DNA from: Rhodopseudomonas palustris
GTDB taxonomy: Bacteria; Pseudomonadota; Alphaproteobacteria; Rhizobiales; Xanthobacteraceae
Assembly: GCF_034479375.1 (NCBI RefSeq)
Contig: NZ_CP140155.1
Span: forward strand, 2,232,001 to 2,296,000
Length of the DNA: 64,000 nt
Direction: 5' to 3'
The position numbers were made by a program, and so were the translations under genes. The notes under the pieces are model-generated. The model saw nothing but the letters and a program-made list of their open reading frames with translations, was not told the DNA's origin and did no database searches. Every line of letters begins with the position of its first letter. Position 1 is the first letter of the stretch. Positions 2,836-16,516 of this stretch are shown here, piece by piece.

Positions 2836-4011
2836 TCAGCGCACCAGCTCGCGCATCGCGCCTTCCAGGCCCTCGATCGTGATCGGATACATCCGCTCTG
2901 AAAACAGCCGGCGGATGATCGTGGTCGACTCCGAGTAGTCCCAGTGCCGCTGCGCCACCGGATTGAGCCAGACGGCATGCGGATAGGTCCGCAGCACGCG
3001 GTCGAGCCAGACCGAGCCGGCCTCCTCGTTGACGTGTTCCACCGAGCCACCCGGCACCATGATCTCGTAAGGGCTCATCGAGGCGTCGCCGACGAACACG
3101 ACCTTGTAGTCGTGCGGGAACTTGTGCAGCACGTCCCAGGTCGGGGTGCGGTCGGTGAAGCGCCGCTTGTTCTGCTTCCACACGCCTTCATAGAGGCAAT
3201 TGTGGAAGTAAAAATATTCCATGTGCTTGAATTCGCTCTTCGCCGCCGAGAACAGTTCCTCGACCTGCGCGACGTGCGAATCCATCGAGCCACCGATATC
3301 GAAGAACACCAGCACCTTGACGGCGTTGCGCCGCTCGGGCCGCATATGCACGTCGAGATAGCCGTGATTGGCGGTTTCGCGGATCGTGGTGTCGAGATCG
3401 AGTTCGTCCGGGGCGCCGGTCCGGGCGAATTTGCGCAGGCGGCGCAGCGCCACCTTGATGTTGCGGATGCCGAGTTCGACGTTGCCGTCGAGATCCTTGA
3501 ACTCGCGCTTGTCCCACACCTTGACGGCGCGCTGGTGGCGGCTCTTTTCCTGGCCGATCCGCACGCCTTCCGGATTGTAGCCTTCGGCACCGAACGGCGA
3601 GGTGCCGGCGGTGCCGATCCACTTGTTGCCGCCCTGGTGCCGCTCCTTCTGTTCCTCGAGGCGCTTCTTCAGCGTCTCCATGAGCTTGTCCCAGCCCATC
3701 GCCTCGATCTGCTTCTTCTCTTCCTCGGTGAGATATTTCTCCGCCAGCTTCTTCAGCCATTCGGCGGGAATGTCCGCCTTCTCCATGGCGTCGAGAAGGT
3801 TCTCGAGCCCCTTGAACACGCTGCCGAAAACACGATCGAACTTATCGAGATTGCGCTCGTCCTTCACCAGCGCGGCGCGCGACAGATAGTAGAAATTCTC
3901 CACGCTCTGATCCGCCAGGTCGGCGTCGAGCGCCTCCATCAGCGTCAGATATTCGCGGAGCGTGACCGGGACCTGGGCGTCGCGCAGCGACGTGAAAAAC
4001 TGAAGGAACAT
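2836..4011 (-). CDS. VWA domain (CoxE-like) protein, probable partner of a MoxR AAA+ ATPase
   Basis: 391 aa from the ATG at 4011 (MFLQFFTSLRDAQVPVTLREY). The N-terminal half, with many helices and a KKLAEKYLTEEEKK stretch, matches the CoxE/YehP type of VWA protein. The C-terminal half holds the VWA fold, with a degenerate metal-ion site: FFDIGGSMDSHV replaces the classic DxSxS with DIGGS. VFVGDASMSPYEI lies near the end. Such proteins work with MoxR ATPases to assemble or insert metals into large complexes. A MoxR gene is 2.6 kb away at 6588-7430, on the other strand. The target complex cannot be named from this window. Confidence 0.8.
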   Translation of the reverse strand: MFLQFFTSLRDAQVPVTLREYLTLMEALDADLADQSVENFYYLSRAALVKDERNLDKFDRVFGSVFKGLENLLDAMEKADIPAEWLKKLAEKYLTEEEKKQIEAMGWDKLMETLKKRLEEQKERHQGGNKWIGTAGTSPFGAEGYNPEGVRIGQEKSRHQRAVKVWDKREFKDLDGNVELGIRNIKVALRRLRKFARTGAPDELDLDTTIRETANHGYLDVHMRPERRNAVKVLVFFDIGGSMDSHVAQVEELFSAAKSEFKHMEYFYFHNCLYEGVWKQNKRRFTDRTPTWDVLHKFPHDYKVVFVGDASMSPYEIMVPGGSVEHVNEEAGSVWLDRVLRTYPHAVWLNPVAQRHWDYSESTTIIRRLFSERMYPITIEGLEGAMRELVR

Positions 4012-4182
4012 GGCCGACAGATTGCCCGACCCTGCGCGCTCGTCAAGGTGCAATACCTTCGCAGCGGCTGTTGAAAACTCCGGCCGGAACCGCGAATGCC
4101 CTCAATCGGACCGATCGGATTATCGGTTGGGTAATCTAAGCCGGTGCACTGCTGTGCCTGCAACGAAGCCCCCTGCAGGCCG

Positions 4183-6117
4183 ATGATTTCCCCTATTCTC
4201 CCATCGTCCAATCCGATCGGCCGGCTGTCGACGCCGGCCCTGATCGTCACGCTGTTCGTGCTGGCGATGAGCGCCTGCGTGCTCGCGCTAGTGGTTTGGA
4301 AGGGTTACGACGCGAGGCGCAACGCGCTGGCGCAGAGCGAGACGGAGATGCGCAATCTGGCGCATTCGCTCGCGGAACACGCCAACCACACGATGCAGGC
4401 GGCCGACGTGGTGATGGACGACATCGTCGCCTTTCTTCGGTTCCAGCCGTTTCCCGATCGCGCATCGTTCAACGCGCGGCTGCGCGAAATTTCGGACAAG
4501 CTGCAGCAGATCAAGGAACTGGCGATCCTCGACGCGAAGGGCGACGTCGAATACGCGTCGATCACCCCGCTTCCTCCTATCAACAATGCCGACCGTGACT
4601 ACTTCACCTATCACCGGGATCACGCCGACCCCAAACCGCTGATCACCGGACCGGTCGTCTCCCGCACGTCCGGGCAACCGGTGATTGCAGTGACTCGGCG
4701 CCTCGAAACGGCGAACGGCGACTTTGCGGGCATTGTCATCGCGACGATCGAGAGCGACTATTTCAACGACTTCTACAAGACCTTCGACCTCGGCGCCGGC
4801 GGTGGAATCACGTTGTCCAGCAGCGACGGCAAAGTCGTGATTCGCTGGCCGCCGACGAAGGACGGACGTGACCTGTCGAAGAGCCAGTTGTTCGAGCGTC
4901 TGCTGCCGCGCAGCCCCGTCGGATACAATCTTGCAACCTCTCCGTTCGACGGCCTCCAGAAATACTATGCCTACGAGCGACTATCCCTTTATCCGCTCGT
5001 CGTCACGGTCGCACGCACCGAAGTGTCGGTGCTGGCGGACTGGCGCGAGGCGATCCGCTCCGACGCGGTGGTGGCGATGGCGGTGCTCGCCTGCATCGTG
5101 CTGCTGGCTGCCGGGCTCGCGGTGCAACTGCGCAACCGCGAGCGCTTCGAGAAGCTGCTGCGCGAGCGCGACGCGCGTCATCGCCTGATCGACGCGAACA
5201 TCGGCGACGTCGTCGTTGTGCTCGACGGCCAGGGCGTCCTGACCTTCGTATCGATGTCGGTCGAGACGGTGCTCGGCTTCAGCCCCGAGGAGATGCTCGG
5301 CCGCGTGTATCTCGACATGATGCACCCCGACGACGTCGCGGGACTACGGTCGATCGGCAAGCGTCTGCCTCATGCCCCCAACGGCCTGCGCGCCGAGTTC
5401 CGCATGGAACGAGCCGACGGCACGCTCGTCTGGCTCGAGGCCAATTTCAGGTTCACTCGCCAGGACAGCCGGCCGGAACGCAATATCGTCTGCACGCTGC
5501 GCGACGTCACTCGCCGCAAGGAGGTGGAGGACGAAGTCGAGGCCCTGAATTCCCGCCTCGCGGAAATGGCCAGAACCGACGCCCTCACCGGCCTACCGAA
5601 CCGCCGAGCGCTCGATGATTTCATCGCCAGCGAATTCAAGGCGAGGCGAGATCTGTCGGTGCTGATGATCGACGTCGACGATTTCAAAGGCTTCAACGAC
5701 CGTCTCGGCCACCATGCCGGCGACGAGGCTCTCCGACAACTCGGTGGATTGCTGGCCGGGACCGCAGCGAGTGCAGGCGGCTTCGCCGCGCGCTACGGCG
5801 GCGAGGAGTTCACCATCGTCCTGCCCGGCATAGCGATGGCGGCCGCATTCGTCTTCGCCGAAGACCTGCAGGCAGCCGTCCGGTCGCTCGGTATCGTCAA
5901 CCCCAGCGCGACGCGCGGCAGACTGACCGTGAGCATCGGCATCGCCGGCAAGGTCTCCGCCGTCTGCGATCCTGCAACGCTGCTTCGCTGTGCGGATATC
6001 GCGCTGTACGAGGCGAAGCGGCGCGGCCGCGATTGCAGCGTGGTGGCGCCTGCCTATGTCGGCGACGCCGGATCGCTGGTCCCCGACGTATCCACCCGGA
6101 CCGGCACGCCCGCCTGA
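4183..6117 (+). CDS. Membrane-bound diguanylate cyclase with periplasmic sensor, PAS and GGDEF domains
   Basis: 644 aa from the ATG at 4183; a GTG at 4144 would add 13 residues. Order: TM helix (about residues 15-36), a periplasmic Cache-like sensor (about 40-290), a second TM helix (about 293-316), PAS (about 345-455) and GGDEF (about 475-630). The active-site signature is RYGGEEF (about 536-543), so synthesis of cyclic di-GMP from two GTP is expected. No RxxD inhibitory site is seen just before the signature, where the sequence reads GGFAARY. The periplasmic domain has DRDYFTYHRDHADPKPLITGPV, typical of double-Cache sensors. The ligand is unknown. It is divergent from the VWA gene. Confidence 0.87.
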   Translation: MISPILPSSNPIGRLSTPALIVTLFVLAMSACVLALVVWKGYDARRNALAQSETEMRNLAHSLAEHANHTMQAADVVMDDIVAFLRFQPFPDRASFNARLREISDKLQQIKELAILDAKGDVEYASITPLPPINNADRDYFTYHRDHADPKPLITGPVVSRTSGQPVIAVTRRLETANGDFAGIVIATIESDYFNDFYKTFDLGAGGGITLSSSDGKVVIRWPPTKDGRDLSKSQLFERLLPRSPVGYNLATSPFDGLQKYYAYERLSLYPLVVTVARTEVSVLADWREAIRSDAVVAMAVLACIVLLAAGLAVQLRNRERFEKLLRERDARHRLIDANIGDVVVVLDGQGVLTFVSMSVETVLGFSPEEMLGRVYLDMMHPDDVAGLRSIGKRLPHAPNGLRAEFRMERADGTLVWLEANFRFTRQDSRPERNIVCTLRDVTRRKEVEDEVEALNSRLAEMARTDALTGLPNRRALDDFIASEFKARRDLSVLMIDVDDFKGFNDRLGHHAGDEALRQLGGLLAGTAASAGGFAARYGGEEFTIVLPGIAMAAAFVFAEDLQAAVRSLGIVNPSATRGRLTVSIGIAGKVSAVCDPATLLRCADIALYEAKRRGRDCSVVAPAYVGDAGSLVPDVSTRTGTPA

Positions 6118-8691: not shown

Positions 8692-8778
8692 GCCCGCCTC
8701 CCATCGGAACAGGCTAACGGAACAAACAACGAACTTTCCAGTCAGGATTTTCCCGTCCGTCACTTCAACCATTACTCA

Positions 8779-14094: not shown

Positions 14095-14442
14095 CTACTT
14101 CGCGTCGGATTTCGGCGGCGTGGCGTCCTTGGCCGGCGCAGCCGCGGGTTCCGGCTTCTTCGACCCCGCCTGCAGTTGCGCGACGGTCTTCTGCATCGCC
14201 GCCAGCGCGATCTTCAGCGCCTCGATCTGACGATTGGCGGCGTCGAGCTTCTGCTGCTGATCGAGCCGCGTCTTGTCGATCGTTCTATGCAGGAAGTCGA
14301 CGTTGCTCTGCAGACAACTGGTGCGACGTTCCATGGTCTTCTCGGCAGTGCAAATCTCGATGCCGGGCACGTCCTGCGCCGCCGCCACGCTGCTCCAGCC
14401 GAGCGCCATCAGCATCGCCACCATCGTCGTTCGGCCGGTCAT
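14095..14442 (-). CDS. Secreted coiled-coil protein of unknown function
   Basis: 115 aa from the ATG at 14442, chosen because GGAGGAGATCATC precedes it. An N-terminal signal peptide (MVAMLMALGWSSVAAAQD, cleavage probably after AAA) is followed by a region with two Cys (EICTAEKTMERRTSCLQ). A likely coiled coil comes next (about residues 55-92, LDQQQKLDAANRQIEALK), then an Ala/Pro/Lys-rich tail (KKPEPAAAPAKDATPPKSD). It is probably periplasmic. I do not recognise a named family. It is divergent from the GIY-YIG gene. Confidence 0.65.
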   Translation of the reverse strand: MTGRTTMVAMLMALGWSSVAAAQDVPGIEICTAEKTMERRTSCLQSNVDFLHRTIDKTRLDQQQKLDAANRQIEALKIALAAMQKTVAQLQAGSKKPEPAAAPAKDATPPKSDAK

Positions 14443-14557
14443 GATGATCTCCTCCATACATCGTGGGCCACCAGCCAAGCGGGTCCGGTGCCCCGCTGTC
14501 AACGCGCAGAAGCCGCGGCGGATTGCCGGACCCGCCGCTGCGTGCGATTTTCGCCCG

Positions 14558-14839
14558 ATGCAGGATCCTCCCGCCGAAGAGTGTTTCGTCTATGTGCTCG
14601 GCTGCGCCGGCCCGAGCCGATACCTGACCTATGTCGGCTGGACGCTCGACCTCGACCGCAGGCTGTCGCAGCACAACGCCGGCACCGGCGCGCGCTCGAC
14701 GCGGGGCCGAAGCTGGGTGCTGCTCCATAGCGAGCGTTTCACCAGCCGGCAGGGCGCCATGAGCCGCGAATGGCACCTGAAGCGCGACCGCGCCTTCCGC
14801 CGCGGCCTCGCCGCCAGGGCGCAAGGCCTGAAGGACTGA
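14558..14839 (+). CDS. GIY-YIG domain nuclease-like protein (YhbQ/UPF0213 type)
   Basis: 93 aa, the usual size of the stand-alone GIY-YIG family. FVYVLGCAGPSRYLTYVGWT matches the GIY...YIG core, followed by DLDRRLSQHNAG and the SREWHLKRDRAFRRGLAAR segment, where the catalytic Glu is expected (REWHLKRD). Family members cut or bind nucleic acids; the cellular role is poorly known. The ATG at 14558 is the only start compatible with the domain. Confidence 0.8.
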   Translation: MQDPPAEECFVYVLGCAGPSRYLTYVGWTLDLDRRLSQHNAGTGARSTRGRSWVLLHSERFTSRQGAMSREWHLKRDRAFRRGLAARAQGLKD

Positions 14840-14869
14840 GAGCGCCGTAGCGCGATTTTCTGTACCGGT

Positions 14870-15071
14870 TTGTGACAGCCGTTCTGACCTATCTTAACGA
14901 TTGAAACGCGGGTGGAACGAAGCGGGGCCGAATCACCGCGACTGGGCTGTTTCGGCTGTTCACGCCCAAGATGTCGCGCCCATCAGCAAGCAAACCCCAC
15001 AAGCCCTCCCCGGCGCCGGTGGCTGATTTGGTCGTGGCAGCCGAAAATCGTTAACGGCCGGAGGAGAGCGC
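14870..15071 (+). repeat. Tandem repeat unit A (of three)
   Basis: Begins GTTTGTGACAGCC, then CTTAAC at 14893-14898 and GGTGGAACGAAGCGGGGCCG, one GAATC, CTGTTCACGCCCAAGA, CCCACAAG, and GTTAACGGCC at 15050-15059. It ends near GGAGGAGAGCGCG. The distance from the first TTAAC to GTTAAC is 156 bp. This is the most diverged copy at the GAATC element, which has only one GAATC. Confidence 0.75.
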
Positions 15072-15136
15072 GTGGTGTCCGTCGACCCTGCGAGCCTTGG
15101 CGGGCGCGCCCAAAGGGCCAGAACGAGGTGTCCCGA

Positions 15137-15345
15137 GTTGCGACAGCATGACTGACCATCTTAACGTCTGGAACGCGGGTGGAACGAAGCGAGGCCGAAT
15201 CACTGCGAATCGGCTGTTCCCGCCGTTCACGCCCAAGATCTCGGCTCGATCAGAGAGTGGCCCACAAGGCGTGCTCGTCTTGCTGGCGTGATTTCGCATT
15301 CACGCACCAAATTTGGTTAACGGCCCTGCGGAGAACGCGACTATC
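15137..15345 (+). repeat. Tandem repeat unit B (of three)
   Basis: Preceded by GGTGTCCCGA, it begins GTTGCGACAGC, then CCATCTTAACGTCTGGAACG (TTAAC at 15161), CGGGTGGAACGAAGCGAGGC, and CCGAATCACTGCGAATCGG with two GAATC. CGTTCACGCCCAAGATCTCG, CCCACAAG and GTTAACGGCC (15316-15325) follow. TTAAC to GTTAAC spacing is 155 bp. The start lies 267 bp after that of unit A. Confidence 0.8.
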
Positions 15346-15412
15346 GTCCGCATTGATGGTGTCTAACGCTCTGACCAGCGGAGCTCGAACGTCCGGGCCG
15401 CGAGTGTCCCGG

Positions 15413-15605
15413 GTTGCGACAGCCTTGCTGACCATCTTAACCTCTGGAACGCGAACGGAACGAAGCGGGGCCGAATCACTGCGAATCGGCCGCTCCGAAC
15501 GTTCACGCGCTATATCTCGTCGACGATCCAGATCGAGACCCGATATCTGCTCGGTCCCACAAGCCTCCAACGGAAAAAGGCGTTCAATCGTTAATGATCG
15601 GCGAT
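15413..15605 (+). repeat. Tandem repeat unit C (of three)
   Basis: Preceded by GAGTGTCCCGG, it begins GTTGCGACAGCC, then CCATCTTAACCTCTGGAACG (TTAAC at 15437), GGAACGAAGCGGGGCCGAAT, the double-GAATC element, CGTTCACGC, CCCACAAG and GTTAATGATCGG (15590-15601). TTAAC to GTTAA spacing is 153 bp. The start lies 276 bp after that of unit B. Confidence 0.8.
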
Positions 15606-15643
15606 GACCGTCGTCGGAGCAGCCTCGTGCCTATGCGAGACAA

Positions 15644-16297
15644 TCATAACGCGATCGCCAGCTCCTCGATCTCCGCCGGCTCCTGCCGCGCGGCTGCGAT
15701 CCATTCGCGCATCTCCGGCATGTCCATGATCGTTCGGGCGTAGCCCGCAAGCTGCGGATCGAGCTCGACGCCGTAGGTCATGAACCGCGTCACCACCGGC
15801 GCATACATCGCATCCGCCATGGTCCGCGCGCCGAACAGGAATGGTCCACCGGATCGGCTCAGGCATTCGCGCCAGATGGTGCAGACCCGGTCGATATCGG
15901 CCTGCGCGCGCGGCCAGATCTTGAAGCCGGGGAAGTGCGCTTTCAGGTTGACCGGCAGCGACGCGCGCAGCGTGGTGAATCCCGAGTGAATCTCGCCGCA
16001 GATCGAACGGCAATGCGCCCGCGCGATCCGCTCGGCCGGCAGCAATCCGGCTTCGGGCCTGACTTCGTGGAGATACTCGGCGATCGCCAGCGTATCCCAG
16101 ATCTCCGCGCCGTCGTGGCGCAGGCACGGCACCAGGATCGACGACGACAACAGCAGGATTTCGGCTCGAGCTGCGGCATCGTCGGGCGGGACGATGATCT
16201 CGTCGAATTCGAGCCCCGCGAATTTGGTGAGAAGCCAGCCTCGGAGCGACCAGGACGAATAATTCTTGCTGCTGATCGTCAGCGTGGCCTTCGCCAT
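15644..16297 (-). CDS. Glutathione S-transferase family protein
   Basis: 217 aa. N-terminal thioredoxin-like domain (about residues 2-80) with SSKNYSSWSLRGWLLTKFAG, where the catalytic Ser/Tyr is expected, then ILVPCL (cis-Pro) and EIWDTLAIAEYL (Glu-Ser/Thr glutathione site, here Asp-Thr). All-helical C-terminal domain (about 90-215). It probably conjugates or transfers glutathione; the substrate is unknown. The second of two adjacent ATGs (16297) has better spacing to GGAG than the first (16300). The protein ends close to the triple-repeat region. Confidence 0.82.
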   Translation of the reverse strand: MAKATLTISSKNYSSWSLRGWLLTKFAGLEFDEIIVPPDDAAARAEILLLSSSILVPCLRHDGAEIWDTLAIAEYLHEVRPEAGLLPAERIARAHCRSICGEIHSGFTTLRASLPVNLKAHFPGFKIWPRAQADIDRVCTIWRECLSRSGGPFLFGARTMADAMYAPVVTRFMTYGVELDPQLAGYARTIMDMPEMREWIAAARQEPAEIEELAIAL

Positions 16298-16516
16298 CAT
16301 TGTCTCCAGAGTGCCCATCACACCTCGAACCGAAGCCTTACGGACCGGCCAAAACGCGCCCGTGATTAGCCACTGATTGTTTCACGGTGATTTCGTCGGC
16401 GTAATCGCGGAGCACATCAGGTAGCGATTTTCGGCATGGCGCCGCTTGCGACCCCCTTCGGACGGTATGGATGAGGCTAGACGGAACCGTCCCCGCTCGA
16501 CTGCCGCACTTCGATG

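Follow-up and report, generated by a model that had tools for sequence, protein, structure and literature searches.

The 64,000-nucleotide stretch of Rhodopseudomonas palustris DNA analyzed here (contig NZ_CP140155.1, positions 2,232,001 to 2,296,000; hereafter the window) carries three tandem copies of a ~200-bp unit that is a real, old, non-coding, DNA-level element. We see about an even chance that this unit is an old protein-binding compound operator bearing NrdR-type boxes outside the promoters of ribonucleotide reductase (RNR) genes. The array lies among the following features, its units being delimited from the sequence, a repeat search and an alignment:

14095..14502, minus strand: open frame (putative start) for a conserved hypothetical protein, a recurrent neighbor in other genera
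14558..14839, plus strand: GIY-YIG gene (PF01541), directly upstream of the array, its ATG start read from the sequence
14861..15057, plus strand: unit A, from TGTACC to GTTAACGG
15129..15325, plus strand: unit B, from TGTCCC to GTTAACGGCC
15405..15599, plus strand: unit C, from TGTCCC to GTTAATGATC
15644..16321, minus strand: GST-family gene, right border of the array

The GST-family gene is convergent with the GIY-YIG gene, the array sitting between the two, and the product of the 14095..14502 frame has no Pfam match. An original prediction had placed three tandem ~200-bp units here, and the repeat search located the same units as three copies of a 116-nt ungapped core (D1) starting at 14861, 15128 and 15404, with identities of 71% and 85% between the outer copies and the middle one. 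The search also reproduced the periods of 267 and 276 nt, and the TTAAC-to-GTTAA distances of 156, 155 and 153 bp were recovered from the sequence. The most conserved 23-nt block of the units, GGAACGAAGCGGGGCCGAATCAC, has three matches in the window at up to three mismatches versus none in 100 shuffles. The units do share an ordered set of blocks, as had been described, but the blocks are not exact in every unit: unit A carries the variants TTTGTGACAG, TATCTTAAC and TGTTCAC, unit B carries GCGAGGCC, unit C ends in its own terminal block, and CCCACAAG lies farther from the core in unit C than in units A and B. Similarly, a GTGTCCC-type block precedes units B and C, but it is not limited to them, since unit A has the counterpart TGTACC; the block is therefore part of the unit. 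Comparison of the array with its own genome by blastn returned the three window copies plus three short matches (E 0.09-0.31), and a sequence-only profile added two further full matches, one upstream of a PEP_mutase gene (G000:C1:2450504, locus L064) and one at G000:C1:3911190 (see below).

Within the genus, 39 units from 13 genomes formed a near-ungapped alignment in which indels are nearly absent. A DNA similarity search found the unit in 13 of 16 genus genomes and the sequence-only profile in all 16, a result that holds by construction for the 13 genomes whose 39 units served to build this profile (R1). In each of these 13 genomes the same GIY-YIG gene is followed directly by two or three units; a second locus, present in four of the 13, accounts for six of the 39 units, and the profile found five tandem units in each of G001 and G003. 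R1 also matched 135 of 149 family genomes (44 of 47 genera), leaving 14 without a match. In genus g23, all six genomes drawn (G037, G076, G097, G115, G131 and G146) lack an R1 match, which suggests loss or divergence of the element. Within the order, a second profile (R2), built from 50 genus and family matches, matched 198 of 297 genomes and left 99 unmatched, the matches covering 83 of 123 genera; in a class-wide draw it matched 17 of 289 genomes, 14 of the 17 lying outside the order. Searches of more than 40 genomes ran under stricter filters that lose weak matches. A phylum draw yielded 35 matches among 299 genomes, all 35 within the class, and as a control it comprises an unstated number of genomes outside the class. 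An exact degenerate pattern retrieved at least 120 stretches in named genomes, and the specific names among the 80 matches listed are, we presume, alphaproteobacterial, including Bradyrhizobium, Nitrobacter, Afipia, Stappia, Amorphus and Cohaesibacter. The plasmid and phage collections searched gave no match to the element, and we rejected an origin from either.

Matching genomes contain one to seven matches, up to five of them in tandem. Over all loci examined we counted 40 tandem pairs (some twice, as the loci overlap), spaced 124-311 bp apart with a median of 229.5. A tree built from the 39 genus units joins first units with first units and third with third across six related species (support 100/100 and 100/99); because this grouping follows position and not genome, the arrays of these six species predate the species themselves. 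The window's own units fall outside the positional groups, and several branches of the tree are long or weak. We give very little credence to the view that these are ordinary dispersed intergenic repeats without function. Many genomes do have more than one locus, as that view predicts, but copy number is low, the unit recurs at a fixed place across the order, and the six species keep orthologous units that have not been homogenised. Random scatter without conserved spacing, which had been named as the refuting outcome, was not observed, and the constrained spacing, the conservation in much of the order and the recurrent syntenic home support the view of a functional module as opposed to slippage.

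The GIY-YIG gene adjoins the array in all 13 aligned genus genomes, but it is not a general partner of the unit. In three loci (L044, L055 and L061), the GIY-YIG gene lies beyond the hypothetical gene and a unit lies directly upstream of the latter, an order indicating that the GIY-YIG gene moved relative to the units. A short GIY-YIG-like fragment (L048:1093-1194, covering query residues 67-100 only at 53% identity) between the hypothetical gene and a unit suggests decay of the gene in that locus. At most of the loci fetched from the order and class, the neighbor is instead a gene of ~1150 aa coding for a Suv3-type helicase, present beside the unit in 55 of 57 loci. These loci (L078-L122 and L126-L137; 30 from the order, 15 from the class draw and 12 from 14 chosen genomes) are best matches and not a random sample, several share one genus, and the own copy is included. 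In all 55 cases, the unit is upstream of and divergent from the helicase gene, at a median of 133 nt from its start region (range 31-900). Among class loci outside the order, the helicase gene was found at 12 of 14, the exceptions being L110 and L116. Five genomes of 1.2-1.5 Mb (L132-L135 and L137) retain the locus with weak profile scores (E 2e-5 to 5e-4), and tandem copies of the unit also occur at the helicase locus. Weaker extra copies, such as L138, L146, L148 and L150, lie away from the helicase gene. Given the breadth of its distribution, the position upstream of the Suv3-type helicase gene is likely to be the ancestral one in Alphaproteobacteria. The own-genome copy of this locus is the match at 3911190 (L065), where the helicase has DEXQc_Suv3 and Helicase_C domains by Pfam and is followed by a DUF3108 gene and then by a gene that we take to be that of ribosomal protein L28 (rpmB). 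An SMC identity for the ~1150-aa protein was ruled out by its sequence and Pfam domains.

A protein-coding repeat was rejected, as no open frame runs through the units; stops interrupt all six frames in 27-39 of the 39 genus units. A structured RNA, one of the kinds of module originally suggested, found no support as the main reading. Unit B folds with the same energy as its shuffles (z -0.23 and 0.14), and RNAalifold returned 0 pairs for the 39 genus units and about -3.9 and -6.5 kcal/mol for the plus and minus strands of 70 broader cores. Since sequence-based alignments could miss a hairpin with a variable loop, we tested the GAAC/GTTC arms directly. GTTC was at its expected place in 94 of 130 distinct units, at exactly 45 bp in 68 of the 94, and the units hold a weak inverted repeat, GAACgAA/TTcGTTC. 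Across 82 distinct arm pairs, shuffled partners reached the true Watson-Crick total in 0 of 2000 trials and the true run length in 22 of 2000, whereas with G-U wobble allowed they did so in 143 and 684 of 2000, respectively. An excess seen with Watson-Crick pairs but not with wobble allowed suits an inverted repeat in DNA better than an RNA stem, and we rejected a structured RNA as the main reading. The Rfam search that had been proposed gave no match at gathering level in the window or over the units in 13 other loci; the only such hit beside units among these loci was a cobalamin riboswitch in L075, and loose settings gave four chance-level matches far below gathering.

Rhizobia have families of tandem small RNAs, which the units resemble in being tandem, intergenic and ~200 nt long. 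If each unit were a small-RNA gene with its own promoter (TGCGAC-N17-TTAAC) producing a ~150-nt trans-acting RNA, then the tandem copies, the intergenic position between convergent genes, the spacing near 17 from TGCGACA to TTAAC and the association at the fifth position of the arms (Fisher p 0.007 for that position alone) would find an explanation. We nevertheless think this unlikely in view of the near absence of indels among the genus units, the failure of the inverted repeat in the wobble control, the lack of conserved structure noted above and the lack of Rfam matches at gathering level, the last two of which set the units apart from those families. Among the kinds of module first put forward, it is the protein-binding array that fits.

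NrdR is above all a repressor of RNR genes, and the 3′ half of the unit looks like its operator. It contains two palindromic cores of the form C-N8-G, spaced 31-32 bp, with the pattern C-w-A-n-A-T-n-T-w-G. In the window the pairs are:

14967..15009, plus strand: degenerate NrdR-box-like pair of unit A, CAAGATGTCG and CAAGCCCTCC, 33 bp apart
15234..15274, plus strand: NrdR-box-like pair of unit B, CAAGATCTCG and CAAGGCGTGC, 31 bp apart
15510..15550, plus strand: NrdR-box-like pair of unit C, CTATATCTCG and CGATATCTGC, 31 bp apart

When units were anchored by GTTC only, 94 of them showed C.A.at.t.G a few bases downstream. Cores scoring at least 6 of 7 numbered 226 in 166 distinct units compared to 27.6 from shuffles, and they cluster at two offsets; pairs of cores 30-33 bp apart numbered 65 in these units (58 of them at 31-32) compared to 0.0. 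Among the genus units, 33 of 39 have a pair at 31-34 bp and 24 of 39 at 31-32 bp, a count made without a control. The geometry agrees with that of NrdR boxes in RNR promoters, which likewise have two palindromic cores with C and G nine apart and centers 31-32 bp apart: the available text of PMC9110341 places the key GC pairs at positions 9/18 and 40/49 and the two boxes about three turns apart, and that of PMC12051234 includes, among the arrangements bound by NrdR, 16-bp boxes with 14-17 bp between them.

We compared the units with RNR loci of the same order, in which open frames of more than 1200 aa were taken as nrdJ and the scan covered the 1500 bases ahead of the domain match. At a pair score of at least 11.5, 13 of 14 nrdJ-type loci (own nrdJ included) carry a pair versus 1 of 17 other RNR loci, two of which are on short contigs where the scanned stretch may not be upstream; six of the 17 do so at a looser cut-off of 11.0. 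In six of the 14 nrdJ loci, the second box runs into TTGACG, which is -35-like. Upstream of the own nrdJ (L273:1655-1695, G000:C1), CCACATTTAG and CTATTGCTTG lie 31 bp apart and run into TTGACGG. With a matrix trained on 13 nrdJ-type promoter pairs, the top-scoring pair fell at offset 51-54 in 91 of 130 units; with 100 position-permuted matrices, applied to every third unit, it did so in 4.2% on average and 18.2% at most. The nrdJ-trained matrix missed the expected offset in 39 of 130 units, among them unit A of the window. Its score was above the 95% point of 400 segments from recA loci in 83 of 130 units and above that of shuffles in 82 of 130; the core and matrix tests are partly circular because the core pattern, drawn up with the units already in view, was also used to pick the nrdJ training pairs. 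Minus-strand scores nearly equal plus-strand scores (median 6.27 versus 6.59), as palindromic boxes score alike on both strands, so that no direction follows. The units are like an NrdR operator in two of the features tested and also in their sequence, which is similar to that of the boxes at nrdJ-type genes, but they do not lie at an RNR promoter. The own genome yielded a single gene for an RNR large subunit (G000:C1, ~1.58 Mb), with its own pair upstream, and none of the five units of this genome is at an RNR promoter. By eye, a GAGTCAA...GATTC block recurs beyond the second box at the helicase locus (L046, L080, L081, L083-L086 and others); it adds two GANTC sites and reads TTGACTC on the other strand.

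The 5′ half has a layout of its own, with two GGAAC half-sites 11 bp apart, followed by CCGAATC and often GACTC, in the format GGAACG-N5-GGAACGAA...GTTC, where the inverted GTTC is usually 45 bp downstream. In the window these cores are:

14903..14934, plus strand: 5′ core of unit A, GAAACGCGGGTGGAACGAAGCGGGGCCGAATC, with the first GAAC degenerate and one GANTC at 14930
15171..15211, plus strand: 5′ core of unit B, with GAAC-N7-GAAC at 15171-15185 and GANTC at 15197 and 15207
15447..15487, plus strand: 5′ core of unit C, with GAAC-N7-GAAC at 15447-15461 and GANTC at 15473 and 15483

Methylation by CcrM at GANTC controls cell-cycle promoters, and clustered GANTC sites are what the unit has in common with these. 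The frequency of GANTC is 2.94 per 175 nt in units compared to 0.59 in shuffles, one site per unit being imposed by the pattern used to locate units, which 130 of 132 distinct candidates fitted.

The direct repeat GAAC-N7-GAAC is that of the alphaproteobacterial LexA box and has the format of the Caulobacter SOS box, GTTCN7GTTC in the available text of PMC9578287. Of 119 distinct units, 85 have it without a mismatch, the second GAAC being partly imposed by the unit-locating pattern. If it were an SOS operator, LexA, with or without NrdR, would control the adjacent genes. We regard this as quite unlikely, since the match does not extend beyond the repeat: recA boxes, found at 14 of 30 loci, mostly have GAACA and A/T-richer spacers, whereas the units mostly have GGAACG and G/C-rich spacers. 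A LexA matrix built from recA gave the units a median of 10.6 against 16.2-24.6 for the training recA boxes, and the part of the score outside GAAC had a median of -3.4 in units, 5.0 in training recA boxes and -7.9 in random G/C-rich sequence. A LexA box would also account for only 15 of ~200 bp, leaving the other conserved blocks aside. Elsewhere in the window, GAACAAACAACGAAC at 8720-8734 is an A/T-rich GAAC-N7-GAAC match that resembles an SOS box, and at least four identical GAACATATCATGAAC sites are present in the genome (G000:C1:425425, 1310343, 1426959 and 2207840).

We propose that the ~200-bp unit would be a DNA module read by proteins, neither an RNA gene nor coding. Its 3′ half would be two NrdR-type boxes separated by three helical turns and its 5′ half a second putative protein site made of GGAAC half-sites, the inverted GTTC and CcrM-type GANTC. 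An NrdR tetramer loaded with dATP/ATP would bind the box pair and a putative factor the 5′ half, and the bound unit would set transcription from the flanking intergenic region by dNTP level, presumably through repression. At the helicase locus, a plausible target would be the helicase operon. The unit would then have been duplicated in tandem and copied elsewhere, and the window array would be a set of such copies. As that array lies between convergent genes, its downstream target is not evident; it may act remotely on the gene pair to its left, titrate its binders or persist as a less constrained relic. Several facts speak against an operator with NrdR-type boxes. The units are away from RNR genes, the defining place of such boxes, the boxes leave the conserved 5′ half unexplained, the 39 of 130 units noted above lack the pair at its expected offset, no evident promoter lies beside the window array for it to control, and the profiles left 99 of 297 order and 14 of 149 family genomes unmatched. 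Unlike RNR-promoter boxes, those of the unit sit within a tandemly repeated ~200-bp module that also holds a second conserved site.

The datA locus, a titration site for DnaA, offers a model of how arrays might store binding sites for NrdR and the putative 5′ binder without acting as promoters. The window array between convergent genes, the one to seven matches per genome and the positional identity retained by array units in six species would suit such a chromosomal store. At the fetched helicase loci, however, the unit stands just upstream of a gene start, as an operator does, and we assign storage a similarly low probability to that of an SOS operator. A fuller version of the compound-operator reading would have the dNTP sensor NrdR, a putative GGAAC-binding protein and CcrM sites read together at the Suv3-type helicase gene, with the tandem arrays forming a dNTP- and cell-cycle-responsive switch or an NrdR titration site outside RNR genes; we rather doubt this version as a whole while granting it some plausibility.

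The paper of Rodionov and Gelfand (2005) is reportedly the original description of the NrdR regulon. NrdR regulons have since been reconstructed in 20 groups of Proteobacteria (PMC5343134, available text), and effects of NrdR beyond RNR, on chemotaxis and topoisomerase, have been reported in other bacteria (PMC4898720, available text). The titles and abstract openings returned by literature searches describe neither the element nor NrdR boxes at a Suv3-type helicase gene, a gene that the target lists of PMC5343134 may name, and the terms searched are absent from PMC12176259 and PMC3927594. If confirmed, a module conserved in much of an order and carrying NrdR-type boxes beside a helicase gene would bring a further process under dNTP sensing. 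The conserved 5′ half is a concrete target for finding its reader protein, and the unit is an unusually long bacterial cis-element without a gathering-level Rfam entry.

Locus L075 (G107:C1:2971400-2979800) contains three tandem units at 4027-4718, just upstream of the cobalamin riboswitch (3766-3958, minus strand) and of a gene for a TonB-dependent receptor. Cobalamin is the cofactor of NrdJ, and the context of this one locus possibly links the element to B12-dependent NrdJ.
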